DNA of 64,000 nt from Synechococcus sp. Nb3U1 (lineage in GTDB: Bacteria > Cyanobacteriota > Cyanobacteriia > Thermostichales > Thermostichaceae), in NCBI RefSeq assembly GCF_021533835.1, contig NZ_JAKFYQ010000002.1, positions 248,001 through 312,000 of the forward strand, given 5' to 3'. The translations under genes and the position numbers were made by a program. Under the pieces are notes generated by a model, which was not told the DNA's origin, did no database searches, and saw nothing but the letters and a program-made list of their open reading frames with translations. Within the stretch, counting starts at the first letter, position 1. Every line of letters begins with the position of its first letter. Of this stretch, positions 4,991 through 58,468 are shown one piece after another.

Positions 4991-5022
4991 ACAGGAACGA
5001 GAAGTTAAGTTCTTGTTCCTGT
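4991..5022 (+). terminator. Strong intergenic hairpin between permease and formamidase
   Basis: ACAGGAACGAGAA (4991-5003) pairs with TTCTTGTTCCTGT (5010-5022) over 13 bp with a single G-U pair and a GTTAAG loop. No U-run follows (TCTCCCC), so it may be an attenuator or a transcript-stabilising or processing stem rather than a classic terminator. The remaining gap to 5220 holds a 63-codon frame from a TTG at 5033 with no recognised family, which I do not call a gene. Confidence 0.5.
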
Positions 5023-5220
5023 CTCCCCTCTCTTGGAACTAACTGGTTTCTTTTCGGGTGAAGTTCAAATTGTCTTGGAGGAGAACATTGCTGAAATCAA
5101 CATCGAAGATGAGAAGAATCAAGGGGTGGTGATTAGGGGACGTATGGATTTGTTGGTATTAAGTTGTGGCAGGGTCGTTTTCCACCATTCATTCCATTTA
5201 TTCAACAAAGGATCCGGATC

Positions 5221-7780: not shown

Positions 7781-7901
7781 GGGTCTCCCGGACAGTCTCA
7801 AGGGATCCCTCCCTCTTGAAGAGGCATTCCCCAAGTCCGAACCAGAAAAATGCGTAAGTCGCAAGTCAAGCATGATAAAACTGCATAACTTGTCACAAAC
7901 C

Positions 7902-7915
7902 GTAGTGTTGAATAC
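7902..7915 (+). promoter_or_regulatory. NtcA-activated promoter of the nirA-nrt operon
   Basis: GTAGTGTTGAATAC fits GTA-N8-TAC. A TA-N3-T -10 element, TAAGGT at 7939-7944, starts 24 bases after the box, the class II NtcA arrangement. The start site would be near 7950, leaving about a 20-base leader before the nirA ATG. This also rules out the upstream in-frame TTG at 7928 as nirA start. Confidence 0.8.
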
Positions 7916-7969
7916 CAAAGTTCAAGATTGGCAATCGCTAAGGTGGCGTGTAGTGACCCCACGGCAGCG

Positions 7970-9526: not shown

Positions 9527-9635
9527 GAATCCGAGAGTTCACCCCTCTTCAATCCCTATTCATTTTGGGTGTGTCTTAGGTGTGTCCTCTGCTGCATTGT
9601 CCTCATCTTCGTCATTCAAAATCTCGGAGTTCATC

Positions 9636-10958
9636 ATGTTCAATATATTCAACGCTTCTTCTGCGGTATCTCGTCGGCAATTTTTGGCCGGGGCGGCGGC
9701 TCTTACGGCTGGGGCTGTCACAGCAGGGATCCCACGGGCCCAGTCTCAGTCTTTGGGCAGTGGCTACTGGATTGCTCAGGCAGATACCCCCGAAACCACC
9801 CGTGCCAAGCTAGGGTTTATTGCCCTCACGGATGCAGCTCCCCTCATTATCGCCAAGGAAAAGGGGCTGTTTGAAAAGTACGGCATGAAAGATGTGGAGG
9901 TGGAAAAACAAGCCTCCTGGGGCACCACCCGCGATAATTTGGTACTTGGCTCTGGGGCCGGTGGCATCGATGGGGCGCACATCCTCACCCCCATGCCCTA
10001 CTTGATCACCACCGGCAAAGTTACCGATGGTCGGCCTGTACCGATGTACATTTTGGCCCGTTTGAATCTGGATGGACAGGGGATTAGCATTGCCAATACC
10101 TATCGGGATCTGGAAATTGGCCTAGACAGTTCCCCCCTCAAGGCCAAATTTGCCGAGGCGCGAGCTGCCGGTGGGGATCCCAAGTGTGCGGTGACCTTCC
10201 CGGGGGGAACCCATGATCTGTGGATGCGCTACTGGCTATCTGCCGGGGGAATTGATCCCAACAATGATGTTTCCACCATCGTAGTGCCGCCGCCGCAAAT
10301 GGTGGCCAACATGAAATCCAGAACTATGGAAGCCTTTTGTGTGGGCGAACCCTGGAATGCTCAACTGATCAACCAAAAAGAAGGTTATTCCGCTTTAACC
10401 ACCGGCGAATTGTGGAACAATCACCCCGAAAAATCTCTGGGGATGCGGGCCGATTGGGTAGATGCCCACCCCAAGGCAGCCTTGGCATTGATCAAGGCAG
10501 TGCAAGAAGCACAAATCTGGTGCGATCAACTGGAGAACAAAGAAGAGATGTGTCAAATCTTGGCACAACGGCGCTGGTTCGGGATCCCGGCAGCCGATAT
10601 TTTGGGCCGTGCCCAGGGTACCTTCGACTACGGCACCAGCAAGATCGTTGAAAATAGCCCCCATGTGATGAAGTTCTGGGATGAAAACGCTTCTTATCCC
10701 TTTAAGAGTCACGATCTCTGGTTCTTAACCGAAGATATCCGTTGGGGCTATTTCCCCGCAGATACCGATATCAAAGCCCTAGTGGAGCAAGTGAACCGAG
10801 AAGACTTGTGGCGAGAAGCCGCCAAAGCCATTGGCCAGGAATCTGCCATTCCGGCAAGCACCTCCCGGGGTGTAGAGACCTTCTTCGATGGGGTGCAATT
10901 TGATCCGGAAAATCCTGGAGCCTACCTCGATGGGCTGTCCATCAAAAAGCTGGCCTAA
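9636..10958 (+). CDS. nrtA: Nitrate/nitrite ABC transporter substrate-binding protein
   Basis: A 440-residue periplasmic binding protein, close to the usual NrtA length. It begins with a twin-arginine signal (SRRQFLAG followed by an Ala-rich core). The mature part starts KLGFIALTDAAPLIIAKEKG and contains PGGTHDLWMRYWLSAGGID and EAFCVGEPWNAQ, typical of the NrtA/CmpA family. Start ATG 9636, with CGGAG seven bases before, is chosen over an earlier in-frame start because it places the signal peptide at the N-terminus. CmpA (bicarbonate) is a close paralogue, but the position between nirA and narB argues for nitrate/nitrite. Confidence 0.92.
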   Translation: MFNIFNASSAVSRRQFLAGAAALTAGAVTAGIPRAQSQSLGSGYWIAQADTPETTRAKLGFIALTDAAPLIIAKEKGLFEKYGMKDVEVEKQASWGTTRDNLVLGSGAGGIDGAHILTPMPYLITTGKVTDGRPVPMYILARLNLDGQGISIANTYRDLEIGLDSSPLKAKFAEARAAGGDPKCAVTFPGGTHDLWMRYWLSAGGIDPNNDVSTIVVPPPQMVANMKSRTMEAFCVGEPWNAQLINQKEGYSALTTGELWNNHPEKSLGMRADWVDAHPKAALALIKAVQEAQIWCDQLENKEEMCQILAQRRWFGIPAADILGRAQGTFDYGTSKIVENSPHVMKFWDENASYPFKSHDLWFLTEDIRWGYFPADTDIKALVEQVNREDLWREAAKAIGQESAIPASTSRGVETFFDGVQFDPENPGAYLDGLSIKKLA

Positions 10959-11081
10959 CTCTACCCTTTGAGCACCCTTTGCAGAAGAGAGAGAAGGGAT
11001 CCCCTTCAAACTGTTCAATCCAGACCCCTTTTCTCTCCTCTTTCCCTTACATTTACATCAACCCCCAGCCCCCAGCCAACC

Positions 11082-12044
11082 ATGAACCTTATTCCCCTCC
11101 GCAAGATCGGGTACAACCTCTTCCGCATCCTGTTGCCCATCATCGGGAGCTTCGGTCAATGGCTATTGAGAGCGCTGCATAGCCACATTCTACAATTCAA
11201 AGCCGTTGTCAATACTTCCTCTAGTTCTGGATCCAGCCCCCGCTCCGCTTGGATACAACGAGTCAACCTCCATAAAGCATTGCGCCGTATTTTGTTGCCA
11301 ATTACAGCAATTTTGGTGGTTTTGCTGCTCTGGCAAATTATTTACAGTCAACCAGGGGCCAATTTGCCTACCCCCGCGCAAGTTTGGCAGGATACTTGGG
11401 ATCCCTTGATCAAAGATCCCTTCTTCGATTTTGGTGGCAACGATAAGGGGTTGTTCTGGCAAATTTGGGCCAGTTTGCAGCGGGTGGCGATCGGCTTTAC
11501 CTTGGCGGCTTTGGCGGGAGTCCTGGGGGGGATGATCATCGGGGTGAACCGCTGGCTCTACGAGGCAGTAGATCCGATCTTTCAAGTGCTGCGCACGGTG
11601 CCTCCTTTGGCTTGGTTGCCCATTTCCCTTGCGGCCTTTCGAGATGCCACCCCTTCGGCTATTTTCGTGATTTTCATCACCGCCATCTGGCCCATTTTGA
11701 TTAACACAACCGTGGGTGTGCAACGGATCCCGCAGGATTACCGCAACGTGGCTCGGATTGTGCACATGTCGGGCTGGAAATACTTTTTCAAAATTGTCTT
11801 TCCGGCAACCGTGCCTTACATCTTTACCGGCTTGCGGATTGGGGTGGGGCTGTCTTGGTTGGCGATTGTCGCGGCGGAAATGTTGATCGGTGGTGTGGGC
11901 ATCGGTTTCTTTATTTGGGATGCCTGGAATAGTTCCCGCATCAGCGAGATCATTTTGGCTCTCATCTACGTTGGGATTGTCGGTCTTTTGCTGGATCGAT
12001 TGATGGCTTGGATCGGTTCGCTGGTCGTTGCTGAAGATCACTAG
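11082..12044 (+). CDS. nrtB: Nitrate ABC transporter permease
   Basis: A 320-residue inner-membrane permease of the NrtB/CmpB/SsuC type. After a polar N-terminal segment there is a first helix (RRILLPITAILVVLLLW), the family stretch PFFDFGGNDKGLFWQIWASL, and the EAA-like loop VARIVHMSGWKYFFKIVFPA, which contacts the ATPases, then terminal helices. ATG 11082 is preferred over a TTG at 10968, which would add 38 low-complexity residues. It lies 123 bases after nrtA and 54 before nrtC. It would form the membrane channel for NrtC and NrtD. Confidence 0.92.
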   Translation: MNLIPLRKIGYNLFRILLPIIGSFGQWLLRALHSHILQFKAVVNTSSSSGSSPRSAWIQRVNLHKALRRILLPITAILVVLLLWQIIYSQPGANLPTPAQVWQDTWDPLIKDPFFDFGGNDKGLFWQIWASLQRVAIGFTLAALAGVLGGMIIGVNRWLYEAVDPIFQVLRTVPPLAWLPISLAAFRDATPSAIFVIFITAIWPILINTTVGVQRIPQDYRNVARIVHMSGWKYFFKIVFPATVPYIFTGLRIGVGLSWLAIVAAEMLIGGVGIGFFIWDAWNSSRISEIILALIYVGIVGLLLDRLMAWIGSLVVAEDH

Positions 12045-12098
12045 AAGATCACTAATAACTCAAACCTTGAACAGACAGGGATCCCTTAGGTGAGCATC

Positions 12099-14099
12099 AT
12101 GAAGACCCAACCCTATATCGAAGTCGATCATATTGATAAGAGTTTTCCGCTCGAGAATGGCACCCTTTATCCAGCCCTGAAAGGGATCCATCTAGAGATC
12201 CGACAGGGAGAATTTGTTTCTCTGATTGGCCATTCGGGTTGTGGCAAATCCACGCTGCTCAACATCATTGCCGGACTAGACAAACCCTCTCGGGGGGGGA
12301 TCCTTCTGGAAGGCCGACAGGTGAGGGATCCCGGCCCGGAGCGGATGGTGGTATTTCAAAACTACTCCCTGTTGCCCTGGCTGACGGTGCGGGAAAACAT
12401 CGCCCTAGCTGTGGATGAAGTCTTGGGATCCCAACCCAAAGCCAAACGACAGCAGATTGTTGAGGAGCATATCCGTCAGGTGGGGTTACAGGCAGCAGCC
12501 GACAAACGCCCTGCCCACCTGTCTGGGGGCATGAAACAACGGGTGGCCATAGCCCGCGCGCTTGCGATTCGTCCCCGAGTGCTGCTGCTAGATGAGCCTT
12601 TTGGGGCATTGGATGCCCTCACCCGTGGCAACTTACAGGAACAACTGATGGACATTGCCCAGGCGGAGCAGCTCACCTGTGTCATGGTCACCCACGATGT
12701 GGATGAGGCGCTGCTGCTCTCCGACCGGGTGGTGATGCTCACCAATGGCCCCGCCGCCCAAATCGGGCAAATTTTGTCTGTGCCCTTTGGCCGCCCTCGC
12801 CATCGTCTAGAAGTGGTCAATCACCCCGATTACTACAGCTTGCGGGGGGAGATGATCTATTTTCTCAATCAACAAAAACGAGCCCGCAAGAAAACTCCGG
12901 CCAATGTGGCGATTGCCAGGCACGGCCTAGAAAAAGTGAACCTGGAAATTGGCTTTGTTCCTCTCACAGACTGTGCGCCTGTGGTAATCGCCAAAGAAAA
13001 GGGCCTGTTTCAAAAATATGGCCTAGAAGAGGTCACCCTAGTGCGGGAACCAGGCTGGAAAATCCTGGCAGAAGGGATCCGTTCCGGGCGTTTGGATGCA
13101 GCTGGGGTTGTGGCTGGGATCCCGTTGGCTTCTACCTTAGGGATCGGAGGAACTCCAGTTCCTTTGGTTACCGCGCTCACTTTATCACGCGGGGGGAATG
13201 CCATTACGTTTGGGCGCCAATTCTTGGAGCAGGACATTCAAAGCCTGGAGGATTTTCGTGAGTATCTCAGCCAAACCCCTGACAAAGTGCATATCTTGGG
13301 GATGGTGCATCCGGCCTCCATGCACAATTTTCTTTTGCGGCATTGGTTAGCTAGCGGCGGTATTGATCCGGATCGGGATACAACCTTGACGGTGATCCCG
13401 CCACCCCAAATGGTGAGCAATCTCAAAGCAGGGAATATCGATGGCTACTGCGTCGGCGAACCTTGGAACTCAAGAGCAGTACGGGAACAGGTCGGCTTCA
13501 TCATCACCACCACTCCAGAAATCTTGCCTAGCCACATCGAAAAAGTCCTGGCGGTGCGACAGGATTGGGCACAAAAGTATCCCCGTACTCATGTTGCTCT
13601 GGTCAAAGCCCTTTTGGAAGCCTGTCAGTATTGTGATCAGCCACGTCATCGCCCGGAAATTTTGGAGTACCTTGCCCAACCTCAGTACTTAGGCGCAGTA
13701 CCCGCCGATATTCAGCCGGGATTAACGGGCGCTCTTCATCGAGGTATTCAAGATGAATCGGAGGTAATGGTGGGCTTTAATCAGTTTGCCAGTGGCCGCA
13801 ATACCTGTCCCGAAAAGTTGGAAAACCTCTGGATCTTGACACAAATGGCCCGCTGGGGACTCTGTGCATTTCCACGCAATTGGCTTTCGGTGATCGATCA
13901 AGTGTTGGATACAGAAACCTACGCCCTTGCCGCCCAGGATTTGGGGTTACCGGATCGCGCCCATGACCGAGGTGCGCTGATGTTTGCGGATGGATCCCAG
14001 TTTGATGGACAGGATCCCATTGGTTATTTGGAATCAGTTCAAATTCGACAGGAGGTACAGCTACAGGAATACCGCATCAGCAACCCAGTCTTAGCTTAG
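12099..14099 (+). CDS. nrtC: Nitrate ABC transporter ATPase with fused NrtA-like regulatory domain
   Basis: A 666-residue two-part protein. Residues 1 to about 255 are an ABC ATPase with Walker [10 protein letters not shown], signature [14 protein letters not shown] and Walker [13 protein letters not shown]. From about residue 280 it continues as an NrtA-like binding domain ([29 protein letters not shown]) without a signal peptide, so cytoplasmic. In the well-studied NrtC this domain mediates inhibition of transport by ammonium or signalling proteins. ATG 12099 with AGGTGAG upstream is chosen; a GTG at 12090 is an alternative. Full length, no sign of decay. Confidence 0.94.
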
Positions 14100-14130
14100 T
14101 CTTGACTCACTTTAATCATTTCTCAAAATT

Positions 14131-14976
14131 ATGATGACCAGCTCTCGTCTTTCTTCTTCTGCTTTATCCTCCGCACCTGTGGTGTCTGGGTTGCCCTTGC
14201 TTTCTCTTCAAAATGTGGGCAAAACTTACTCAACATCTAATGGGTCTTTTATCGCTTTAGAAAATGTCAACCTCGATGTGGGATCCGGAGAATTTATTTG
14301 CCTGATCGGCCACTCTGGGTGTGGCAAATCCACCCTGATGAATATGGTAGCCGGTTTTTCCACCCCTAGCTCGGGATCCATCACCCTCAAAGGGCAGCCG
14401 GTGGGATCCCCTGGCCCGGATCGGATGATGGTGTTTCAAAACTATTCTTTATTACCCTGGCTGACGGCTTTTGAAAATGTGTATTTGGTTGTGGATCAGG
14501 TATATTCCAACAAATCCCATAGTGAAAAAAAGCAGATCGTTCAGGAACATCTGGAATTGGTGGGCCTGACCGAAGCCGCTCACAAACGCCCGAAACAGCT
14601 TTCCGGCGGCATGAAACAACGGGTGGCTATTGCCCGTGCCCTCTCCATTCGTCCAGAGGTGCTGTTGTTGGATGAGCCCTTTGGGGCACTAGATGCCATT
14701 ACCAAAGAAGAACTTCAGGAGGAGTTACTCGCTATTTGGCGGGATCACCGCTGTACGGTTTTGATGATCACCCATGATATTGACGAAGCGCTTTATCTAG
14801 CAGACCGAGTGGTGATGATGACCAATGGCCCAGCTGCCCATATTGGTGAGATCCTGACTATTCCCTTCGACCGACCACGCATCCGCTCCCGCATTCTAGA
14901 AATGCCGGAGTTTTACGAATTGCGCAACTATGCCCTTGACTTCCTCTACCGCCGTTTTGCCCATACTACCGATTAA
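14131..14976 (+). CDS. nrtD: Nitrate ABC transporter ATPase
   Basis: A 281-residue ABC ATPase, partner of NrtC. It shows Walker [17 protein letters not shown], the Q-loop in [10 protein letters not shown], signature [14 protein letters not shown], Walker [12 protein letters not shown] and the H-loop in MITHDIDEA. The C-terminus ends shortly after the ATPase fold, without the NrtA-like extension. It starts 31 bases after nrtC and completes the nrtABCD importer. ATG 14131 and ATG 14134 are adjacent; either may be used. Confidence 0.93.
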   Translation: MMTSSRLSSSALSSAPVVSGLPLLSLQNVGKTYSTSNGSFIALENVNLDVGSGEFICLIGHSGCGKSTLMNMVAGFSTPSSGSITLKGQPVGSPGPDRMMVFQNYSLLPWLTAFENVYLVVDQVYSNKSHSEKKQIVQEHLELVGLTEAAHKRPKQLSGGMKQRVAIARALSIRPEVLLLDEPFGALDAITKEELQEELLAIWRDHRCTVLMITHDIDEALYLADRVVMMTNGPAAHIGEILTIPFDRPRIRSRILEMPEFYELRNYALDFLYRRFAHTTD

Positions 14977-15021
14977 GTAAACCCATTAAGCTAAAAGCAG
15001 AACCTCCGGAGAACAAGATCG

Positions 15022-15609
15022 ATGGTGATTGCCCATCAGCCAGCTCCAACTCAGCAGATGGATCCAGAAATAGAGGATCTTGCCTTAATCCTGCCGAAAA
15101 CTCTAGAAGAATATCTTGCCAACCCAGTTGATAAATCAGAGTGGGTAGATGGCCAGGTTGTGGAGAAGTCAGGCCAAACACTTATGCATGCAAAGATACA
15201 AACTCGACTTCTCATTCGATGGGCAAACTATGTCGAAAATCAGCAGTTAGGGGGGATAGTACTGGTGGAGGCTCCCTGCCAAACTTTAGGGAGAGGAAGA
15301 CCTCCTGACGTTGCCTATCTTTCTCCAGACTTGGTTGAACAATTTGGTGACGATGTTGCTACACTGCCTCAAAGTTACTCCTTGATTGCGGAGATCATCT
15401 CTCCAACAGACAGTGGAGAAAATATCTTTCTGAAAGCGCAGGAATATCTCAGCTCCGCAATCTTAGAAGTTTGGCTGTTTTTTCTAAAAAGCAAATATAT
15501 TTTCATTCAAACTCAAGAGCAAAACCTTTGGCTAGCCGAGAAGGATGTGGCCAAAACTCAACAAGTCTTGCCGGGTTTTGAGATTGCAGTTTCCGAACTA
15601 CTCAGTTAA
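15022..15609 (+). CDS. Uma2 family (DUF820) putative endonuclease
   Basis: A 195-residue protein of the Uma2/DUF820 family, abundant in cyanobacteria and with a PD-(D/E)XK nuclease fold. Typical pieces are LPKTLEEYLANPVDKSEWVDG, the acidic residue in RPPDVAYLSPDL near residue 97, and AEIISPTDSGEN near residue 130. A CTCCGGAG sequence about ten bases upstream gives a binding site. It is wedged between nrtD and narB with toxin-antitoxin remnants just after it, so this looks like an insertion into a formerly continuous nitrate operon. Cellular function is not established. Confidence 0.85.
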   Translation: MVIAHQPAPTQQMDPEIEDLALILPKTLEEYLANPVDKSEWVDGQVVEKSGQTLMHAKIQTRLLIRWANYVENQQLGGIVLVEAPCQTLGRGRPPDVAYLSPDLVEQFGDDVATLPQSYSLIAEIISPTDSGENIFLKAQEYLSSAILEVWLFFLKSKYIFIQTQEQNLWLAEKDVAKTQQVLPGFEIAVSELLS

Positions 15610-15654
15610 GGGATCCCTATAAACATAAAATGACATTTGATCTGGTTGAAGACG

Positions 15655-15777
15655 ATGGGATTGAGAATTGATGATTTGCTCAAAGACAAAAGAGAAATCG
15701 TTTTTGCTATTGCTGCCAAGCATGAAGAAAACCATGTCAAAGTATTAAGAGAGGCTACTCCTCTGTGGGCGACCTAG
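15655..15777 (+). pseudogene. Remnant of MntA-type nucleotidyltransferase antitoxin
   Basis: The 40-residue frame beginning MGLRIDDLLKDKREIVFAIA resembles the N-terminus of MNT-domain (MntA-type) minimal nucleotidyltransferases, which start with a two-helix segment ending AAKHGxxxVRVFGS. Here AAKHEENHVKVL is followed by sequence lacking the GSxARG catalytic strand, and the frame stops at 15775-15777. I read it as a truncated, decayed gene. The intact family adenylylates a HEPN toxin. Confidence 0.55.
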
Positions 15778-15814
15778 AGCTTCTTACCTGTATATTTTAG
15801 ATATTAACTAGAAA

Positions 15815-15961
15815 GATATATCAGATTTTCGAGATGTGTTGATTCATTCGTGCCTACAAGTTGATTTTGAGCAGGTTTGGGCTGTCGTCGCACAAGAAAT
15901 TCCAAGCTTAAAGCCTAAGCTAAAATCTAAGCTAATAGTCATCCATCCTTTCCAGTGCTGA
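15815..15961 (+). pseudogene. Remnant of HepT-type HEPN toxin (C-terminal part)
   Basis: An open stretch without its own start codon encodes DISDFRDVLIHSCLQVDFEQ and then VWAVVAQEIPSLKPKL. This matches the C-terminal part of HEPN toxins of the HepT/DUF86 group, where the motif is RDVLIHxY and VWxxVxxxLPxL; the tyrosine of the Rx4-6H toxin motif is replaced here (IHSC). The N-terminal half is missing. With the upstream MntA-like remnant it represents a dead mntA-hepT pair. narB starts eight bases after its stop. Confidence 0.6.
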
Positions 15962-15969
15962 GTTAGAAA

Positions 15970-18150
15970 GTGACGAGTCATCAAGTTACTAAGACCCAAT
16001 GCCCCTATTGCGGAGTAGGGTGTGGATTAGAGGCCGTTCCTACTCCTGCGGGCGATTGGAAAATTCGTGGAGATCGGGAGCACCCCTCCAGTTTGGGAAT
16101 GGTGTGTGTGAAGGGAGCCACGATTATGGAGTCGGTCAGCCAAGATCGATTGCTTTACCCCATGTTTCGAGAGAATCTAGAGCAACCTTTTCGGCGCATC
16201 TCTTGGGAACAAGCTTTGCAAGAAATCACCATCCGCATCCAAGATTTGCAAGATACCCCTGATGCAATGGCAATGTACGGATCTGGGCAATTTTTGACGG
16301 AAGATTACTATGTGGCCCAAAAACTGATTAAAGGATATCTGAGAACTAACAATTTTGATGCCAATTCTCGTCTGTGTATGTCCTCGGCAGTTTCGGGCTA
16401 TATTCAATCTTTTGGCTCCGATGGCCCCCCTTGCTGTTACGAGGATTTAGATCAGTGTGATCTGGCCTTTTTGGTGGGTACCAATACGGCAGAATGTCAT
16501 CCCATTCTCTTTAATCGCCTGAAAAAAAGACATCGGTTTGGATCCCCTCTTAAGATTATTGTGGTGGATCCCCGCAAAACTCAGACTGCGGAAGCAGCAG
16601 ATCTGTACTTGGGTATTCAGCCGGGTAGTGATATTGATCTATTTAACGGGATCGCCCATTTGCTCTTGCGCTGGGGGGAGATTGATGCCCCTTTCATCGA
16701 AGATTGCACGCAAGGCTTTGCCCAATACGCGGCCTTGTTATCTAGTTATGAGCCTGAAACGGTGGCACAGCGCTGTGGCATCTCGCCGGAAGATCTGATC
16801 CAGGCTGCCAAACTCTGGCAGGGATCCCAAAAGATTCTTTCCCTTTGGTCGATGGGCCTCAATCAATCCAGCGAAGGTACGGCCAAAATCTCTAGCTTGA
16901 TCAATCTCCATTTGATGACGGGGCAGATTGGCAAGCCGGGGATGGGGCCATTTTCGCTGACAGGTCAACCCAATGCCATGGGGGGCCGAGAGGCCGGAGG
17001 ATTATCCCATTTGCTGCCGGGATATCGCTCGGTGAAAAATCCTCAGCACCGAGCAGAAGTGGAACAGGCTTGGGGCTTGCCCAGTGGATCTATATCGCCT
17101 CAGCCAGGGCTAACTGCAACCGAAATGATTTCTGCTCTAGAAGCAGGATCCCTGCAACTGTTCTGGATCGCGGCAACTAATCCTCTGGTGAGCTTGCCCG
17201 ATCTAGAGCGAGTTAAAAAGGCCTTGAGAAAATCTCCATTTACAATCTATCAAGAAGCCTATTACCCCACCGAAACAGCTGAGTATGCCCATCTGCTCTT
17301 GCCCGCCTGCCAATGGAGCGAAAAAACAGGGGTGATGACCAACTCGGAGCGCCGGGTTACCCTTTGCCAACAATTTCAGGATCCCCCCGGAGAAACCCGA
17401 CCAGATTGGGACATTTTTGCGGAAGTGGGGCGTAGATTGGGGTTTGTTGAGCCATTTCAGTTTCAAAGCTCAGCAGACGTTTATGCCGAATTTGCTGCCC
17501 TTACGGAAAATCGCCCTTGTGATCACTCGGGCCTCAGTCATGCTCTTTTGGCCGAACAAGGCCCTCAACAATGGCCCTACCCCAAGGATCAAACCCAGGA
17601 TAAGATTCTGGATCCCGCCCGACTTTATACCGATTTGCGCTTTCCCACTGTGGATGGTCGCGCTCGGTTTATCCCCTACCATTCCCGTGGATTGGCTGAG
17701 CCTGCGGATCCCCAATATCCTCTTGTATTGACTACCGGTCGAGTTTATGGCCACTGGCACACCCAAACCCGCACCGGCAGAGTCGAGAAAATTACCAAAA
17801 TGCATCCGCAGCCCTTTATTGAGATTCATCCCCACGATGCCGAAAAGCTAGCCCTCCAGAATGGGGATCCAGTTCAGGTAAGTTCCGCCCGTGGGCAAGC
17901 CTATTTCCCCGCTAAGATCACTCGTGCCATTGCGCCGGGAACGGTGTTTGTGCCCATGCACTGGGGATCCCTGTGGGCAGAATCTGCCGAGTGCAATGCG
18001 CTCACCCACGACATCAGTTGTCCAGTCTCTGGCCAACCAGAATTAAAAGCCTGTGCAGTTGCTTTGAGCAAAGCAGAGTCGTTTCCGCCGAAACTGGAGA
18101 TTGAGAAGATTGTACCCGAGGAAGTTTTGGATGTCTCTGTTTCAGTTTGA
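15970..18150 (+). CDS. narB: Ferredoxin-nitrate reductase
   Basis: A 726-residue molybdopterin oxidoreductase that reduces nitrate to nitrite in the cytoplasm using ferredoxin. The N-terminal 4Fe-4S motif is [11 protein letters not shown] with a fourth cysteine in MVCVKGATI. Bis-MGD domains follow ([40 protein letters not shown]) and the C-terminal molydopterin dinucleotide-binding region ([18 protein letters not shown]). The start is a GTG at 15970. Its 3' end overlaps narM by 20 bases. Unlike the compact operon of some relatives, a Uma2 gene and toxin-antitoxin debris separate it from nrtD. Confidence 0.94.
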
Positions 18151-18589
18151 GCAGGATTTTGCCGATTCTCTGCGCTGTATCCCCATGAGTGTGCGCCTCA
18201 AGTTAGATTTGTGCGGGATTAAGCTCAAACTCCATCAGTGGGGGCAATTTTCAACTCAGCAAAAGCAGCAGTGTGTCAACTGGCCCTTTCAAACCCCCCA
18301 GGATATTGAACAATTTGGCAGCCATTTACGGCAGTTGATTCGTTCTACCTGTCATGAGGAGGCTAAAGAAATTCCCCCTGACCCACTGCCCGAATGGCAA
18401 AATACGGATGGGATCCCAGTCAGTGTTCAACAAAAGGCCGAGGAACTAGGGATTCAGATAACCCTCGATTTCTGGAAAACCCTACAGGATCTACAACGAT
18501 TCGCCCTAATTAAACTGAGCCGTTCCCATCACGAAAATAAGAATTTTTTGCCAGCCTTACAAGAATTTGGCCTGAAGCCAAAAGTTTGA
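18131..18589 (+). CDS. narM: Nitrate reductase-associated protein
   Basis: A 152-residue protein of the nitrate reductase-associated family. The hallmark start [19 protein letters not shown], then [17 protein letters not shown], is present. In cyanobacteria NarM is needed to obtain active NarB, probably in assembly or cofactor handling. ATG 18131 lies inside the end of narB in another frame, so the two are translationally coupled. The family-specific start motif directly follows this ATG, which is why the longer frame from 18101 is rejected. Confidence 0.85.
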
Positions 18590-36739: not shown

Positions 36740-38308
36740 ATGGGTACAAGTTTTATGCGACTCTCCACTGACAAACTCTTCACTCTTGATGCAAAGCGGT
36801 GTGCCTGTGGGGGTTTTCATGCCCCGCAAGATCACAGCGAATTTCTCGCGTCTATGCCCCAAAATCCGGCGGATTTGGCGGATGATTTGATCAAAATGGG
36901 AGTGTATAAGCCGCAGGTGTTGAAACTGGCGGATCAGATCAACCGCACCGAGATGCTGGAAACGCTGGTTTTGGAGCGCTTGAGTCAGCGCAACCCAGAA
37001 AAGGAGCCAATCTTGCGGGAGATGATCCGGCAGGCAGGGGGGCTGGATCAGGCGATGGTGGCGGCTTTTGGCCCGCAAGCCTCTGAGTTTTTCACCGATA
37101 CCCTGCGGGCTGGCCCCTACTCGCGGCGGCGCTTTTTGACTCAGGTGTTGGTGGCCGCTTCGGTGATCGGGTTGACAGCCACTCAAGGAGAACGGGAGCT
37201 GTCTGCCCAGGCTCAGGGATCCCTGGAAAAAACGGATCTGCGGATTGGTTTTATTCCCATCACCTGTGCCACCCCGATCATCATGGCGGAACCCCTGAAG
37301 TTCTATGAGAAGTATGGGCTGAATGTGCAGGTGGTGAAAATGCCCAGTTGGGCTGCCGTACGGGATTCGGCCATTGCCGGGGAACTGGATGCCTATCACA
37401 TGCTCTCCCCGATGCCCATTTCCATTACCTTAGGCCTGGGATCCACCGCTTTCCCCATTAAGCTGGCCAGCATCGAGAACATTAACGGCCAAGCCATTAC
37501 CGTTGCCAACAAGTACAAAGACACCCTCAAAGGTCCCGCCGACTTCAAAGGTTTCACGATTGGCGTGCCCTTCCCCTACTCGATGCACAACCTCTTGATC
37601 CGCTACTACCTAGCCACTGGCGGTCTTAATCCCGATACCGACGTGCAGATCAACCCCGTGCCACCTCCAGACAGTGTGGCTCGTCTGACGGTGGGGGATA
37701 TTGACGCCATGTTGATGCCGGATCCCTTTAACCAACGGGCGGTGTTTGAGGGGGCGGGTTTTCTCCATATGGTCAGTAAAGATCTGTGGCCAGGGCACCC
37801 CTGCTGTGCCTTTGCCGCCAGCCAAAGCTGGATTGACGCCAACCCCAACACCTTCCGGGCCGTGAACAAAGCGATCATTGATGGGGCCAACTACGCCAGC
37901 CAAGCGGAGAATCGAGCCGAGATCGCCAAGGCCATTGCTCCGCGGGAATTTCTCAATCAGCCAGAAGAAGTGGTGGCTGCGGTGCTAACGGGCAAGTTTG
38001 AGGATGGCTTGGGCAATACCTTCGACATTCCCGATCGTATCGATTTTGATCCCTACCCCTGGCAGAGCTTTGCCTACTGGATCACCAGCCAGATGGTGCG
38101 CTGGAATCTGCTCGAGGCAGATCAGGCGGATTATTCGCAGATTGCCCAGGATATTTTCCTGACAGATTTGGCCCGCGATTTGGCCCGCGAGCTGGGGCAA
38201 ACCCCACCCGCTGAGATGCTGCGCGTCGAGACCTTGATGTTCGATAGCTTCGATCCCAGCGATCCGGCTGCCTACATTCAGGCTCAGATCGATCGCTACG
38301 GCGTGTAG
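36740..38308 (+). CDS. cynA: Cyanate ABC transporter substrate-binding protein with N-terminal extension
   Basis: A 522-residue NrtA-family binding protein, first gene of a cynABDS-type operon. The binding-protein part starts near residue 160 (LRIGFIPITCATPIIMAEPL) and has PYSMHNLLIRYYLATGGL and MLMPDPFNQRAV. A twin-arginine signal, YSRRRFLTQVLVAASVIGLT, lies at residues 127-146, preceded by an unusual 126-residue polar extension with CACGGFHAP near residue 21. If exported by Tat, this extension would be a very long cytoplasmic N-region. A later start is possible (ATG 36854 or 36896) but would still leave a long leader. Substrate is inferred from cynS in the operon. Confidence 0.85.
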   Translation: MGTSFMRLSTDKLFTLDAKRCACGGFHAPQDHSEFLASMPQNPADLADDLIKMGVYKPQVLKLADQINRTEMLETLVLERLSQRNPEKEPILREMIRQAGGLDQAMVAAFGPQASEFFTDTLRAGPYSRRRFLTQVLVAASVIGLTATQGERELSAQAQGSLEKTDLRIGFIPITCATPIIMAEPLKFYEKYGLNVQVVKMPSWAAVRDSAIAGELDAYHMLSPMPISITLGLGSTAFPIKLASIENINGQAITVANKYKDTLKGPADFKGFTIGVPFPYSMHNLLIRYYLATGGLNPDTDVQINPVPPPDSVARLTVGDIDAMLMPDPFNQRAVFEGAGFLHMVSKDLWPGHPCCAFAASQSWIDANPNTFRAVNKAIIDGANYASQAENRAEIAKAIAPREFLNQPEEVVAAVLTGKFEDGLGNTFDIPDRIDFDPYPWQSFAYWITSQMVRWNLLEADQADYSQIAQDIFLTDLARDLARELGQTPPAEMLRVETLMFDSFDPSDPAAYIQAQIDRYGV

Positions 38309-38418
38309 AGAGTGTGTGGATTTTCCAGAGGAGAGGGATCCCGTCTGTTCGAGTTGAACGGTTTGTCGGGGATCCCGCTTCTTAAGATTATCTTCAAGTT
38401 TGTCTCATCAGGGGTGTT

Positions 38419-39249
38419 ATGGCTGCTTCTTCCGCTTCGCCAAGGCGATGGATCCGCTCGGTTTTGCCCGGTGTCAATCAACAGGCTTTTGCGCTCTTTT
38501 TGATTTCTCTGCTCTTGATCTTGGGGGTTTGGGAAGCAGGAGCGCGCTTTGGGGTGTTCTCGCAGCTGATGCCGCCTGCTAGCAAAACCTTGGTAGCCAT
38601 TTGGGGGTGGATTTCGGATCCCTTCTACGATTACGGCCCCAATGACAAAGGCATCGGCTGGCACCTGTTGGTCAGCTTGCGGCGGGTGGCGATTGGGTTC
38701 ACGATCGGCTCTTTGATCGCCATCCCTCTGGGGGTACTGGTGGGCCTTTCAGAAGTCACCTCGCGGGCGATGGATCCCTACATTCAACTGCTCAAACCGG
38801 TCTCGCCCTTGGCCTGGCTACCATTGGGTTTGGGGATCCTGAAAAGTTCGGAAAATACCGCCCTATTTGTCATCGCTATCACCAGCATTTGGCCCACCCT
38901 GATCAACACCAAATTTGGGGTGAGCAATGTGGACCAAGCCTACTTGAATGTGGCCCGTTCTCTGGGGGCTTCCCGGTGGCGCACCATCTTCAGGGTGATT
39001 TTGCCTGCCGCTGCGCCGAACATCGTGGCCGGATTGCGCATCAGCATCGGTATTGCCTGGTTGGTGATTGTGGCTGCGGAGATTTTGGTGGGGGGCACAG
39101 GTTTGGGCTATTTCATCTGGAATGAATGGAATAACTTGCAGATCACCAGCATCATCACTGCGATTGTCGTCATCGGCATGGTGGGGCTGTTGCTGGATCG
39201 GTTGTTTGGATTGTTGCAGCAATGGGTCGCGTTTGGGCTGAGATCATGA
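38419..39249 (+). CDS. cynB: Cyanate ABC transporter permease
   Basis: A 276-residue inner-membrane permease of the NrtB/SsuC family. It has a first helix (LFLISLLLILGVW), the family stretch PFYDYGPNDKGIGWHLLVSL, a helix with LIAIPLGVLVGLS, and the EAA loop NVARSLGASRWRTIFRVILPA that couples to the ATPase. Its TGA overlaps the start region of the downstream ATPase (ATGATG), so translation is coupled. There is a 110-base gap after cynA. Confidence 0.88.
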   Translation: MAASSASPRRWIRSVLPGVNQQAFALFLISLLLILGVWEAGARFGVFSQLMPPASKTLVAIWGWISDPFYDYGPNDKGIGWHLLVSLRRVAIGFTIGSLIAIPLGVLVGLSEVTSRAMDPYIQLLKPVSPLAWLPLGLGILKSSENTALFVIAITSIWPTLINTKFGVSNVDQAYLNVARSLGASRWRTIFRVILPAAAPNIVAGLRISIGIAWLVIVAAEILVGGTGLGYFIWNEWNNLQITSIITAIVVIGMVGLLLDRLFGLLQQWVAFGLRS

Positions 39250-40130
39250 TGGTTACTTCCCCTGCCTATTCCTCCGGTTCCGTCGGCTCGGAGCGGATCC
39301 CGCAACTGCAACTGCGCCAAGTGACCAAGATCTACTCGGGTCGCCGTGGCCTAATGGATCGAATGCTCGGTCGGGCTTCGGTGGATTATGCGGCGCTTTC
39401 CCCCATTGATTTGGTGGTGGAGGCCAACACCTTTGTCTCGATCATCGGCCCCTCTGGCTGCGGCAAATCCACGTTGCTGAATATCATCGCGGGGCTATCG
39501 CAACCTTCCACGGGCCAGGTGCTGATCGACGGACAGGAAGTGCATCGCCCTGGCCCCGATCGCGGCATTGTCTTTCAAAACTACGCCCTGATGCCCTGGA
39601 TGACAGTGGCGGAAAATATCCGTTTTGCGGTGGAGACCGTTCATCCCACCATGCCCTTGCCCCAGCAGAAGCAGGTGGTGCAATCCTTCATTGACTTAGT
39701 GGGGTTGCGGGGGGCAGAGAAGAAACATCCCCATGAGCTGTCAGGGGGGATGAAACAGCGGGTGGGTATTGCCCGTGCTCTGGCGATCAATCCGCAAATT
39801 CTCTTAATGGATGAGCCCTTCGGAGCTTTGGACGCCCTGACCCGTGGTTTTCTTCAGGATGAGATTGAGCGGATCTGGGAATCGCAACGGAAGACGGTCA
39901 TCTTGATCACCCACAGTATTGAGGAGGCCCTGTTGCTGTCGGATCGAATTGTGATGATGACCCGTGGGCCGGGTGCCCGCATTGCCCAGATTTTGGATGT
40001 GCCCTTTGCCCGTCCGCGTCACCGAGACAGTTTGGATCAACAGCCGGGCTACCACGATCTGAAGGCGGCGATGGAACGTCACCTCTCCCAAGAAACCCGC
40101 GCGGTTGAGGAATCACGAATCCGGGTTTGA
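39246..40130 (+). CDS. cynD: Cyanate ABC transporter ATPase
   Basis: A 294-residue ABC ATPase with Walker [14 protein letters not shown]-loop VFQNYALMPW, signature [14 protein letters not shown], Walker [13 protein letters not shown] and H-loop ITHSIEEA. The protein begins with a short non-conserved leader, and ATG 39246 overlaps the permease stop codon; ATG 39249 is an alternative. It has no NrtA-like C-terminal extension, consistent with cynD. Confidence 0.88.
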   Translation: MMVTSPAYSSGSVGSERIPQLQLRQVTKIYSGRRGLMDRMLGRASVDYAALSPIDLVVEANTFVSIIGPSGCGKSTLLNIIAGLSQPSTGQVLIDGQEVHRPGPDRGIVFQNYALMPWMTVAENIRFAVETVHPTMPLPQQKQVVQSFIDLVGLRGAEKKHPHELSGGMKQRVGIARALAINPQILLMDEPFGALDALTRGFLQDEIERIWESQRKTVILITHSIEEALLLSDRIVMMTRGPGARIAQILDVPFARPRHRDSLDQQPGYHDLKAAMERHLSQETRAVEESRIRV

Positions 40131-40193
40131 AAGCTCAGGCCAGGTTGCGTCAGTTGCACAGTTGTTTGTTTAGTTACCATTTAGGAGTTTGTG

Positions 40194-40640
40194 ATGAGCA
40201 CAGCCATTCCCGAAATTACTGAAAAGCTCTTGGCAGCCAAGGCCGAGAAAGGTTTAACCTTTGCTGATTTGGAACAGAAAATAGGGCGGGATGAAGTGTG
40301 GATCGCGGCGGTCTTTTATCGCCAGGCCAGTGCCTCTGCCGAAGAAGCCAGCAAGCTCACAGACATTCTAGGGTTGGATGCTGCGGTAGCCAAACAATTA
40401 ACCGAATGTCCGGTGAAAGGCTTGGGGCCAGTGGTGCCGACGGATCCTTTGATCTACCGCTTTTACGAGATCATGCAGGTGTATGGTATGCCGATTAAAA
40501 CCATCATCCACGAGAAGTTTGGCGATGGCATTATGAGCGCAATTGACTTTACTCTCGATGTGGAAAAGGAAGAGGATCCCAAAGGAGATCGCGTCAAGGT
40601 GATCATGTCTGGCAAGTTCTTGCCCTACAAGAAATGGTAG
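40194..40640 (+). CDS. cynS: Cyanate hydratase (cyanase)
   Basis: A 148-residue enzyme that converts cyanate and bicarbonate to ammonia and carbon dioxide, usually as a decamer. An N-terminal helical domain ([19 protein letters not shown]) precedes the catalytic domain, where Arg and Glu in [12 protein letters not shown] and Ser in [11 protein letters not shown] correspond to the known active site residues. TAGGAG seven bases before ATG 40194 is the binding site; a GTG at 40191 is rejected. It ends the cyn operon; a terminator hairpin follows. Confidence 0.95.
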
Positions 40641-53067: not shown

Positions 53068-54243
53068 ATGCGCGAACATGCCCCCATTGTCCCCGTCCTG
53101 TCTGCTCCTGAGGAAGAGGAAGAATCTTACCTGGATTACTACTATGACGATCCGGGAGAGGCCCCCGGCACCCTCAATATCGATCCAGATGCGCCTCTGC
53201 CAGAGATCCTGCTCATCGACTACACTCCAGAACGGTCGACATGTCGCCCTCTCACCCATTTAGAAGAATGCCGCCCCTATCTACTGTCTCCTTCGGTTGC
53301 TTGGATCGACATTCGCGGCCTGGGCAGCCAAACGGTGATGGAACAGGTCGGCCATGTCTTTGGTTTACACCCGCTGGCTCTTGAGGATGTTGTGAATGTA
53401 CCGCAGCGACCCAAAGTAGAAGAGTACGAAGAGCACTTGATTTTGATCTGTCGGCTTGTGCAGTTGAACAAGGATCCAGAAGCAGACGAAAGCCTTACTC
53501 ACAGTCAGGTCAGCTTTGTATTGGGGGAACAGTACCTGCTTAGCTTGCAAGAAACCCCCGACTTCGATGTGTTCGAGCCCATTCGAGAGCGCATCCGTAC
53601 CCAAAAAGGCACCATTCGCCGCCAGGGAGCTGATTATTTGGTCTATGCCCTGCTGGACATGATCATCGACGGCTATTTCCCGATTTTAGAGGAATTTGGG
53701 GAACGGATTGAGACCTTAGAAGAGGAAGTCATGACATCTCCCACCCGCCGCACCCTGGAAAAAATCCAAACCCTGAAGCGGGATCTGCTCAGTTTGCGCC
53801 GCGCCATCTGGCCCCACCGGGATGCCATCAATATCCTGATTCGAGATGGTAATCCCTTAATTCGCCGCGAGGTACGTACCTATTTGCGAGATTGTTATGA
53901 CCACTGTATCCAGGTGCTCGACATCGTAGAAACCTACCGAGAACTGACATCTAGCTTGATGGATGTCTATCTCTCGGCAATCAGCAATCGCATGAATGAG
54001 GTGATGAAGTTCTTAACGGTGGTCTCCTCGATCTTTATTCCGTTAACCTTTGTGGCTGGGGTGTATGGCATGAACTTCAACCCCGATCGCTCCCCACTCA
54101 ATATGCCGGAACTCAATGCCTACTGGGGTTACCCCCTCTGCCTGGCCATTATGGTCTGCGTCGGTGGACTGCAAATCTTTTGGTTTTGGCGTAAGGGCTG
54201 GTTCGAGAATTTCTCCGCTCCCAAACGGGATCCCTCCATTTAG
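53068..54243 (+). CDS. corA: Magnesium/cobalt transporter CorA
   Basis: A 391-residue CorA-type channel. A large acidic N-terminal cytoplasmic domain (EEEEESYLDYYYDD near the start) leads to a long helix (IETLEEEVMTSPTRRTLEKI), then two C-terminal membrane helices. The diagnostic GMN motif appears in VAGVYGMNFN. The start ATG 53068 has a HIP-like GGGATCCC just upstream. It normally forms pentamers importing magnesium. Confidence 0.92.
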   Translation: MREHAPIVPVLSAPEEEEESYLDYYYDDPGEAPGTLNIDPDAPLPEILLIDYTPERSTCRPLTHLEECRPYLLSPSVAWIDIRGLGSQTVMEQVGHVFGLHPLALEDVVNVPQRPKVEEYEEHLILICRLVQLNKDPEADESLTHSQVSFVLGEQYLLSLQETPDFDVFEPIRERIRTQKGTIRRQGADYLVYALLDMIIDGYFPILEEFGERIETLEEEVMTSPTRRTLEKIQTLKRDLLSLRRAIWPHRDAINILIRDGNPLIRREVRTYLRDCYDHCIQVLDIVETYRELTSSLMDVYLSAISNRMNEVMKFLTVVSSIFIPLTFVAGVYGMNFNPDRSPLNMPELNAYWGYPLCLAIMVCVGGLQIFWFWRKGWFENFSAPKRDPSI

Positions 54244-54301: not shown

Positions 54302-54315
54302 GTATCCTCAAATAC
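54302..54315 (+). promoter_or_regulatory. NtcA-type promoter of the orphan binding-protein gene
   Basis: GTATCCTCAAATAC matches GTA-N8-TAC. TAAGTT at 54337-54342 gives a TA-N3-T -10 element 21 bases after the box, the expected class II arrangement. Transcription would start near 54349, about 77 bases before the ATG. This suggests induction of the binding protein under nitrogen limitation. Confidence 0.65.
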
Positions 54316-54425
54316 AAAAGTCTGGCCCCACCCTGCTAAGTTTACTGTTTGTAATTGTTGCCTCAGTTTTTGCCGCATTCTCGCTGCGGATTCCTCCTGA
54401 GTTAGGTACTGTGGAGCTTACCGAT

Positions 54426-55514
54426 ATGTCAATCACAAAATCGTCGCGTCGCCAATTCATTCAATCTGCTGCTGCTGCTGCCTCCCTTGTTGCTGCTGGA
54501 GGGTACGGCTTACAAGCCAAAGCCCAGAGCCGAGGCCCTCTTCTCGTTTCCCAGGGACTAGCTCCACTCAAGTACACTCTCTCGTGGCTGCCCTCCTCCA
54601 TGGATACTCCTCTCGTCACCGCCATCCTGAAGGGCTACTTTGCCGATAACGGTGTCGAGGTGACCTATGAGCGGGGTTTTGGCTCCGCCGATTCCATCAC
54701 CAAGATCGCGGCGGGCCAATACGATTTGGGAGAAGGGGATCCCTACTCCATGATCGAGTTCAACGCCAAGAACCCGGATGTGCCTTTGGTGGCCATTTAC
54801 GTCCATTTCAACCGCTCGCCCTTCGGCATCTACACGCTAGAAGGCAGAGGTATTACAGAACCCAGCCAACTCGTTGGCAAGAAGCTAGGAGCACCGGCAG
54901 GGGATGCCCCTCGTCGTCTCTGGCCGGTGTTTGCCAAACAAGTTGGCATTGATCCGGGCTCGGTGGATTGGCTGACCATGGAGCCGCAACTGCGGGAACC
55001 CTTCCTGATTCAAGGTCGGGTGGATGCCATCAGCGGCTTCATGACCTCAGCCATGCCCAATATTGTGCGGGGTGGTGTCAACTTAAATGATATTACTCCC
55101 TTCTTCTACAACGACTATGGCCTTGAAATGTATGGAAATGCTGTCATCACTCGTGCTGAATTATTGCAGGAGAAACCCGAAGAACTTAAAGGCTTCTTGA
55201 ATGGGTATGTCAAGGGTTGGCAAGATACCATCCGCGACACCGACGGCAATATGTTTGCCCTAATCGACAAGCTCAAGGAGCAAGGTCAAGTGTTGGATAC
55301 CACTATTGAGAAATTGCGCCTCACCCTGGCGATGCCTCGCCTGTTTGTCACTGATGAAGTGCGGGAAATTGGTTTGGGAGATGTTGTGCCTTCCCGTATG
55401 GAAACCTCTATCGCCCAAGTCGTGGATGGGTTCGGTTTACCCACTAAGCCCGCTCTGGAGCAGGTGTTTGATGGCAGCTTGTTGCCGCCGAAATCTGAGC
55501 GGATGATCGGTTGA
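54426..55514 (+). CDS. NMT1/SsuA-type ABC substrate-binding protein, orphan
   Basis: A 362-residue periplasmic binding protein of the NMT1/THI5-like or SsuA group. Near the N-terminus is a twin-arginine signal (SSRRQFIQSAAAAASLVAAG). The mature chain starts LKYTLSWLPSSMDTPLV, with GYFADNGVEVTYERGFGSAD and AAGQYDLGEGDPYSMIEF. Related proteins bind aminopyrimidines, sulfonates, nitriles or riboflavin, so the substrate is open. No permease or ATPase gene is next to it. It has an NtcA-type promoter, and the 65-bp repeat copy B lies immediately after the stop. ATG 54426 is preferred over a GTG at 54411. Confidence 0.8.
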   Translation: MSITKSSRRQFIQSAAAAASLVAAGGYGLQAKAQSRGPLLVSQGLAPLKYTLSWLPSSMDTPLVTAILKGYFADNGVEVTYERGFGSADSITKIAAGQYDLGEGDPYSMIEFNAKNPDVPLVAIYVHFNRSPFGIYTLEGRGITEPSQLVGKKLGAPAGDAPRRLWPVFAKQVGIDPGSVDWLTMEPQLREPFLIQGRVDAISGFMTSAMPNIVRGGVNLNDITPFFYNDYGLEMYGNAVITRAELLQEKPEELKGFLNGYVKGWQDTIRDTDGNMFALIDKLKEQGQVLDTTIEKLRLTLAMPRLFVTDEVREIGLGDVVPSRMETSIAQVVDGFGLPTKPALEQVFDGSLLPPKSERMIG

Positions 55515-55663: not shown

Positions 55664-58264
55664 CTAAACCACAAAGTTGACCAATTTCTTGGGCACCACA
55701 ATCACTTTTTTGGGCAGGGATCCCTCTAGATATTTCTGGGCGGCTGCTGATGTCAGAGCCAACTGTTCTTGTTCCTCTTGGGTCACCTCTGATGGCGCCT
55801 CAAAGGAGCCACGCAACTTGCCATTCACCTGGATCACAATCGTGACAGTATCGGCAATCAAAGCTGCCGGGTCATAGCTAGGCCAGGTTTGTTTATGTAC
55901 AGAGTTAGTCCCCCCTAACTCATGCCACAATTCCTCAGCAATATGGGGGGCAAACGGCGCCATGAGCAAGATTAAAGTGCGGATCCCGTCGGCATAGACT
56001 GGCGAGTCCACAAGTGCTGCATCATTGAGGGCATTGCTCAGCTTCATCAGCTCAGAAATGGCGGTGTTGAACTGGTAGCCTTCTTCAATATCCTCGCTGA
56101 TCTCTTTGATGGCAGTATGGACAGCCCGACGCAGATCTTTTTCCGGTTTGCTCAGGGCTGTGGGGATAATCTCAGCTGTGAGTAGATCTCGAAAGTTGGG
56201 CTGCTCCACAAACTCGTGTACCTGCCGCCAGACCCGATTGAGAAAGCGAAATTGCCCTTCTACATCGGCATCATCCCACTCCAGATCTTTCTCGGGAGGG
56301 GCTTTGAAGAGGATAAACATCCGCGCCGTATCGGCACCGTAGTTGGCCAACACATCCTCGGGATCCACCCCATTGCCCTTCGATTTGGACATGGTGGCGT
56401 AGATGACCTCTAGCTTCTCGCCAGTTTCGGGATCCACAGGATTGTCGGGATCCTTCACCAGAGCCGCCGGGATCCATCTGTCTTTGCCAGATTTGTTGGG
56501 ATTGAAGTAGGTCAACCCTTGCACCATACCCTGGGTGAGCAAGCGCAAAAAGGGCTCGTCAAAATCTAACAAGCCCCGATCCCGTAGAACTTTGGTGAAA
56601 AAGCGCGAGTAAAGCAAATGTAAAATGGCATGCTCAATGCCACCCACATATTGATCCACCGGCAGCCAACCATTGACTTGATCTTTGCGGAAGATGGCTT
56701 GGTCATTGCGAGCATCACTAAACCGGAGGAAATACCAGGACGAACAAATAAACGTATCCATCGTGTCGGTCTCGCGGCGGGCCTCCACGCCACAGATTGG
56801 GCAGCTCACCTTAACCCAATCCTCCATCTGAGCCAATGGGGATCCCCCACGGCCCCTCAGCTCCACCTCTTCCGGCAAGATCACCGGCAGATCTGCTTCT
56901 GGTACCGGCACAATGCCACACTCCGGACAATGGATCACGGGAATCGGGCATCCCCAGTAGCGTTGCCGTGAGATCAACCAATCCCGCAGACGGTAGTTAA
57001 TCTGCTTCTCCCCCAACCCCTGGCTTTCTAACCAAGCAATTGCTTTTTCTACGCTTTGACCGGGGCCTTTGCCGGCAGGGATCCCGTCTAGAGGGCCGGA
57101 ATGGATCATCACCCCTTCCCCCGGCCAAGCTGCTGTCAGATCCTCGGCGGATGTGAGGGATCCATCGAGGGGCTGCACCACGAGTTTGATCGGGATGCCA
57201 AATTTGCGGGCAAACTCAAAATCCCGCTGGTCGTGGGCGGGCACCGCCATAATTGCCCCGGTGCCGTAGCCCATCAGCACATAGTCGGCAATCCAGATGG
57301 GGATTTTGTCGCCATTCACCGGATTGATGGCGTAGGATCCTGTCCAGACCCCCGTTTTTTCTCGATCCTCAGCAGTGCGGTCGATCTCGCTTTGGGCCGC
57401 CGCTTGAACTTGATAGGCTTTGACAGCCTCCGCTTGCTCAGGGGTGGTGAGGCTCTCCACCAAGGGATGCTCCGGCGACAACACCATGAAGGTGGCCCCC
57501 CAGAGGGTATCGGGTCGGGTGGTAAAAACGGGCAGCTCATCCCCCGATTCCGTTCTGAAGATCACCTTGGCCCCGGTGGACTGGCCGATCCAGTTCTCCT
57601 GCATGGTGCGCACCCGCTCCGGCCAGCCGGGGAGCTTCTCCAGATCCGCCAAAAGCTGATCGGCGTAGTCGGTGATTTTGAGGAACCACTGCTTCAACAT
57701 CCGCTTTTCCACCAGGGCACCGGAGCGCCAGGAGCGGCCATCGGCATCCACCTGCTCGTTGGCCAGCACAGTTTGATCGACGGGATCCCAGTTCACCGCC
57801 GCCTCTTTTTGGTAGGCCAACCCCGCCGCCAAAAACTGCAAGAAGATCCACTGCGTCCACTTGTAGTAGTCCGGCGAACAACTGGCCACCTCCCGCTCCC
57901 AGTCGTAGGAGAGTCCCAAGCGCTGCAACTGATCCCGCATCTGGGCGATATTTTCATAGGTCCACTTGGCGGGCGGGATCCCGCGGTCAATGGCGGCATT
58001 CTCGGCGGGCAAGCCAAAGGCATCCCACCCCATCGGGTGCAACACCGCATACCCCTGCATGCGCTTGTGGCGGGCAATCACATCTGTAATCGAGTAATTG
58101 CGTACATGCCCCATGTGCAGCTTGCCGCTGGGATAGGGAAACATCGACAGGGCATAAAATTTGCGGATCCCCTCTTGCAGCTCCGGCGTGCGATCCAGCC
58201 CGGTTTCACGCCAATGCGCCTGCCACTTGCTTTCGATGGCCTGAGGGTTGTACCGCGCGTCCAC
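55664..58264 (-). CDS. leuS: Leucyl-tRNA synthetase
   Basis: An 866-residue class I synthetase. Motifs are [17 protein letters not shown] (HIGH-type) near residue 45, the editing domain [19 protein letters not shown], zinc-like CPECGIVP and CPICGVEA, and [13 protein letters not shown] (KMSKS). The start is GTG 58264 with AGGAG nine bases upstream, giving the usual [11 protein letters not shown] beginning; the longer frame to 58375 is not conserved-looking. Confidence 0.94.
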
Positions 58265-58468
58265 TGTTCGATGCTCCTGGGGAGAAAAGCTTTCCGACTC
58301 CACACTGCACTGCAGCGGGATACAAGCATTGTAACGGTTGCCCCTAACCCTTGCGGCAGTCTCTCCACAGCGCAAGTGCAGCTTTCAGTTACAAAAAAAC
58401 TCTCCCAATATGAGGGAGTTCAGGAACCAGGAACAGGATTTGAAACTAGAGAAAAGGGATTCCTACCA

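Follow-up and report, generated by a model that had tools for sequence, protein, structure and literature searches.

A candidate receptor gene for purine-type nitrogen compounds behind a conserved NtcA-type promoter in a cyanobacterium

What does an ABC transporter receptor import when its gene stands apart from any transporter? The question is raised by a gene in a stretch of 64 kb (C2:248001-312000, hereafter the window) of the 3.49 Mb genome of a hot-spring-type cyanobacterium (G000). This gene encodes an NMT1/THI5-like substrate-binding protein matching PF09084 with an E value of 1.4e-30 (107.3 bits, for a gathering score of 20.5), and is one of 13 such matches in the genome. Its conserved ATG (54426, MSITKSSRRQF) was preferred to the listed GTG at 54411, and the first ∼35 residues, with their SRRQF, fit a signal of the twin-arginine type. 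The original prediction of a twin-arginine binding protein of the NMT1 type therefore describes a real open reading frame. Among the flanking ORFs, one CorA-like and upstream, the other leucyl-tRNA-synthetase-like (Table 1), no permease or ATPase gene was found, and no catabolic gene adjoins the binding-protein gene in the window.

Table 1. Positions of the features discussed. Simple numbers refer to the window, prefixed ones to other contigs, genomes or loci.
Feature	Position	Strand	Basis or remark
NtcA-type box GTATCCTCAAATAC (GTA-N8-TAC)	54302..54315	+	position; half-sites identical across four related species
−10 box TAAGTT (TAN3T)	54337..54342	+	separated from the NtcA-type box by 21 bases; no variation among four related species
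NMT1/THI5-like ABC substrate-binding protein, 362 aa	54426..55514	+	PF09084, conserved ATG, AlphaFold2 model, nearest folds
CorA-like ORF	53068-54243	same as binding-protein gene	sequence reading
Leucyl-tRNA-synthetase-like ORF	55664-58375	opposite	sequence reading
Bmp/PnrA-type receptor gene, two permease-like ORFs, formamidase; divergent amidohydrolase	1600-6249, 118-1374		PF02608 (receptor); formamidase above NCBIfam cut-off
NMT1_2 receptor, apparent nitrate transporter and reductase genes	9450-18589
Second NMT1_2 receptor, permease, ATPase, cyanase	36740-40640
Matching permease/ATPase pair	G000:C1:919131-920815		no binding-protein gene beside it
Second receptor of the family	L055:8268-10592 (G000:C1:1149267-1151591)		47% identity; a Rieske gene immediately precedes it
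PuuE group and nearby Dpp/Nik-type transporter operon	L191:10640-18953 (G000:C2:348639-356952)		operon preceded by a class II composite
Rieske/2-oxoglutarate oxygenase pair	L192:615-2611 (G000:C2:357614-359610)		one unit, own class II composite
Stand-alone AH_C/GGCT-like proteins	L096:16223-16627, L191:18531-18953, L217:14066-14458		cyanobacterial purine islands
ATPase remnant	G002:C16:67797-68273		three stops
Split permease	L053:9259-10112 (G006)		two frames
Xanthine riboswitches, unannotated Variovorax plasmid	L216:7673-7739 and 7851-7918	divergent	one before the receptor homologue, one before a Rieske oxygenase

The gene had been called an orphan, and a look for a distant permease/ATPase pair with an NtcA site of its own had been proposed. 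Such a pair was found on contig C1. The ATPase located beside an orthologue in another cyanobacterium has a single match of ∼68% in the genome, the next best being 44%, and the matching gene adjoins a permease gene. Compared with the pairs beside orthologues, this ATPase is 66-72% identical and the permease 60-63%. The gene is thus isolated in its locus, as claimed, but the genome does encode a matching permease and ATPase, the probable rest of a complete importer. Across the eight genomes of the window's family, pair and receptor are retained or lost together: five have the receptor and an intact pair. Of the three that lack the receptor, G001 has no pair, G002 keeps an ATPase remnant, and in G006 the permease is broken into two frames, though an assembly error could account for this; what is left in G002 and G006 would be decaying remnants of the pair. 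From the family matching and this co-inheritance, we infer that the receptor and the C1 pair work together. Upstream of the pair, a site with one mismatch to the NtcA consensus (GTATCAGGCAACAC in this genome) is conserved in four species of the window's genus, and exact GTAN8TAC boxes are present in G006 and G007, the two sister genera; the NtcA site expected for the pair is therefore exact in the sister genera, but only near-consensus in the window's genus. The second receptor of the family, which has no exact GTAN8TAC box upstream (C1:1149-1152 kb), may share the same pair.

Indications on the ligand came from the gene context of orthologues, examined at 79 loci that were collected, together with their flanks, by scanning species genomes. 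The most recurrent neighbours were a permease (57 loci), an ATPase (53) and an OprB porin (20), followed by OHCU decarboxylase (12), a GntR regulator (9), a stand-alone allophanate-hydrolase C-terminal domain (9), xanthine-dehydrogenase-type subunits (9 and 9), the urate hydroxylase HpxO (8), HIUase (8), a Rieske oxygenase (7), an allantoate-amidohydrolase-type protein (7), PuuE (6) and AtzD-type ring-opening enzymes (5). Family model scores above curated cut-offs confirmed HpxO, HIUase, OHCU decarboxylase and PuuE, while the XDH proteins match xanthine-dehydrogenase models below the equivalog cut-offs. In Microcoleus, an island has the order HpxO-HIUase-Rieske-OHCU decarboxylase-permease-ATPase-protein-porin-GntR-PuuE-AH_C-amidohydrolase, and in Chloroflexota an apparent operon reads protein-ATPase-permease-XdhFAD-XDH. 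On a plasmid of Pseudanabaena sp. ABRG5-3, the annotation places uraH, uraD, puuE and an 8-oxoguanine deaminase around the transporter. Counted over 194 cyanobacterial genomes, with the window's family left out, 34 of the 36 genomes having the receptor also encode OHCU decarboxylase, versus 48 of the 150 without it, related genomes being non-independent. The stand-alone AH_C/GGCT-like protein was seen to recur in cyanobacterial purine islands (Table 1). Some relatives adjoin ring-opening amidohydrolases or dihydropyrimidinases, so that specificity may vary within the family.

A second line of evidence comes from riboswitches. Yu and Breaker reported xanthine and urate as ligands of the NMT1 motif RNA, which they found ahead of NMT1/THI5-like, tauA, Rieske and isopenicillin-N-synthase-like genes (PMC7373994). 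We found homologues of the window's receptor family directly behind RF03054, as are the proteobacterial genes of that study, in two betaproteobacteria, Variovorax (54.8 bits) and Cupriavidus (47.1 bits), for a gathering score of 36. These homologues are 34% and 28% identical, respectively, to the window's protein, and are far nearer to the receptor family than to the genome's other NMT1 proteins. Variovorax has a divergent RF03054 copy as well, ahead of a Rieske oxygenase that shares 41-45% identity with Rieske proteins of the genome studied here. The partner gene types common to RF03054 systems are Rieske and isopenicillin-N-synthase-like oxygenases and amidohydrolases of the guanine/8-oxoguanine deaminase type. 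The differences are that the identity is limited to 28-34%, that in the window's family the receptor gene is split from the permease/ATPase pair, and that the window's gene and its sampled close relatives have no riboswitch, an NtcA-type promoter being found instead. No RF03054 match was obtained at the window's own gene (locus L009), an Rfam scan of sampled relatives from cyanobacteria, Chloroflexota, Spirochaetota and Armatimonadota detected no riboswitch, and no xanthine riboswitch was found in alphaproteobacterial relatives.

We propose, with a probability of roughly two in three, that this protein serves as periplasmic receptor to an ABC importer which scavenges nitrogen from purine bases or closely related oxidised cyclic ureides, of the xanthine, urate or hypoxanthine type. 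In a tree, the receptor family is well separated from the genome's other NMT1 proteins. The window's protein lies inside the cyanobacterial clade, and a non-cyanobacterial group, which includes the XDH-linked proteins of Chloroflexota, lies outside it; the purine-linked members therefore bracket the window's protein. The midpoint root served for drawing only, and the exact sister group of the window's protein was left ambiguous. The expectation of a nitrogen substrate under NtcA control is supported by independent comparative evidence, the purine gene context and a conserved site (see below). Among the ligands first suggested, pyrimidine, nitrile or amide, the idea of a nitrogen compound is supported, but the evidence favours purines of the xanthine/urate type or related cyclic ureides over nitriles and amides.

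The same transporter family and the same regulation could also serve another ring, allantoin or a compound of the barbiturate, cyanurate or pyrimidine type. Relatives of the Nodosilinea type and from alphaproteobacteria adjoin AtzD/TrzD ring-opening amidohydrolases, formamidase, dihydropyrimidinase or allantoinase, and the window's own species has a PuuE allantoinase but its family no OHCU decarboxylase. On the other hand, three of the five family genomes with the receptor (G003, G004 and G007) retain it without PuuE, and both the Chloroflexota proteins, placed outside the cyanobacterial clade, and the riboswitch-linked relatives indicate purines of the xanthine type. We consider this other-ring ligand rather unlikely. 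The missing OHCU decarboxylase and PuuE nevertheless mean that retention of the receptor gene in this family is not due to the canonical urate route, and that the ligand here may differ in detail from that of the urate-degrading relatives.

Candidate enzymes for using a purine are present in the genome. The segment at C2:351-357 kb encodes a PuuE that scores above cut-off and a Zn-dependent hydrolase, together with a GntR regulator and an AH_C-type protein that share 57% and 61% identity, respectively, with those of the islands; close by are a Dpp/Nik-type transporter operon and a unit of two oxygenases, Rieske and 2-oxoglutarate, each preceded by a class II composite of its own (Table 1). This oxygenase unit consists of the same gene types as the proteobacterial xanthine-riboswitch operons. 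At C1:981-986 kb, an XDH-like protein and a cytosine deaminase are encoded. The best solved match of the Rieske family is the methylxanthine demethylase NdmA, followed by the NdmB and SxtT types; six proteins of this NdmA-like kind are encoded in the genome, and such proteins occur in 5/5 family genomes with the receptor and 0/3 without it. A tentative extension, which we regard as doubtful, is that the receptor is kept together with this expanded Rieske set and feeds an undescribed NtcA-controlled route of Rieske and 2-oxoglutarate oxygenases, by which nitrogen of methylated or modified purines would be obtained in replacement of the urate pathway. At the beginning of the window, a Bmp/PnrA-type receptor gene, two permease-like ORFs and a formamidase gene stand in a row, adjoining a divergent chlorohydrolase-type amidohydrolase that scores below cut-off.

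The proposed control by nitrogen concerns the promoter. In class II promoters, transcription starts about 41.5 bases after the centre of the NtcA box. The class II sequence pattern consists of GTAN8TAC and TAN3T separated by 20-24 bases; it is found upstream of the binding-protein gene, with the box and the TAAGTT at the predicted spacing (Table 1), and is conserved across related species. The canonical class II promoters of glnA, nirA and urtA have the same pattern (PMC3898017), on the model of which the window's promoter is predicted. Is it a chance match, the gene being constitutive or under another regulation? Counted over both strands, the window contains GTAN8TAC 7 times and the strict class II composite 4 times, and the whole genome has 35 composites, compared to 77 for a reversed control pattern. 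Composites this frequent are expected by chance, so that the motif by itself is not significant and was rejected as stand-alone evidence. Significance comes from conservation. Among four related species, the 9 consensus columns (six half-site and three −10 bases) are all invariant, compared to 60/192 of the other upstream columns (p∼5e-5); what varies in the box, its positions 6-9, belongs to the N8 spacer. A GTAN8TAC box is present within 350 bp upstream of 45 of the 57 cyanobacterial orthologues having enough upstream DNA, versus a mean of 2.9 and a maximum of 7 after shuffling, and versus 43/562 for other genes of the same loci, the orthologues being phylogenetically non-independent. No such box precedes any of 16 relatives from phyla other than cyanobacteria, as expected for a regulator that is cyanobacterial (PMC3898017). 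Close relatives retain the exact class II −10 spacing, which a minority of distant ones share; of all orthologous loci sampled, only about ten have it. We conclude that NtcA-type control of the gene is credible through its conservation, and that a chance match is very unlikely.

The AlphaFold2 model of the protein (pLDDT 89.4) has a fold that suits a planar nitrogen heterocycle, without identifying which. Its nearest folds are ThiY (3ix1, Z 33.1 over 299 residues), Thi5 and a thiamin-binding protein. ThiY, the receptor for N-formyl-4-amino-5-aminomethyl-2-methylpyrimidine, shares the fold and the two-lobed architecture, and 3ix1 is the closest solved protein in sequence as well, so that a receptor for thiamine-precursor pyrimidines might be envisaged. 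The two proteins are however only ∼22% identical, neither thiamine genes nor a TPP riboswitch were found around the window's gene or the scanned orthologues, and a thiamine-precursor ligand is at odds with the conserved NtcA control and with the purine gene context; such a function is most improbable. A sulfonate or taurine receptor (SsuA/TauA) has hardly any chance of being correct, as the matches to TIGR01728 and TIGR01729 are weak and far under the curated NCBIfam cut-offs (44.6 for 163.5, and 20.2 for 304), the SsuA fold match (Z 24.5) is clearly weaker than that of ThiY, and no sulfonate genes are among the recurrent neighbours of orthologues. The NrtA, CmpA and cyanate-type NMT1_2 receptors of cyanobacteria belong to the same broad fold class and also serve ABC import, but they fall in PF13379 rather than PF09084, give Z scores of ∼21-22, and have a different gene context. 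Members of PF13379 are encoded in the window itself, where nitrogen genes cluster: one NMT1_2 receptor accompanies what look like genes for a nitrate transporter and reductase, another a permease, an ATPase and a cyanase. Guanidine import was also considered; a literature search gave nothing relevant, and the idea was dropped as the neighbours pointed to purines.

For the preferred purine receptor, the steps would be as follows. Under nitrogen limitation, NtcA with 2-oxoglutarate would bind GTATCCTCAAATAC and activate transcription from the TAAGTT −10 box, as motif and conservation suggest. The receptor, presumably exported by the Tat route given its signal, would bind its ligand and hand it to the separate C1 permease/ATPase pair. 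Inside the cell, the ring would be opened for its nitrogen by some of the Rieske and 2-oxoglutarate oxygenases, the xanthine-dehydrogenase-like enzyme, the PuuE allantoinase and the Zn-dependent hydrolase.

An undescribed substrate had been suggested, which is too strong, as xanthine riboswitch work had already tied NMT1/THI5-like genes to purines (PMC7373994). No report specific to a cyanobacterial NMT1 transporter of purine type was found in the literature searched, the nearest being that same paper and the purine ABC transporters of SAR11. The novelty lies in the split form under NtcA-type control in cyanobacteria. A protein with only a vague NMT1 annotation becomes the subject of a specific and cheaply testable prediction, and an unusual split-locus importer would find an explanation. 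The large receptor family, whose members are usually named 'ABC transporter substrate-binding protein' or by analogy with nitrate or sulfonate receptors, would gain a likely ligand class. More generally, these data suggest that purine scavenging is part of the NtcA nitrogen regulon across many cyanobacteria, a link of which the papers searched gave no description.
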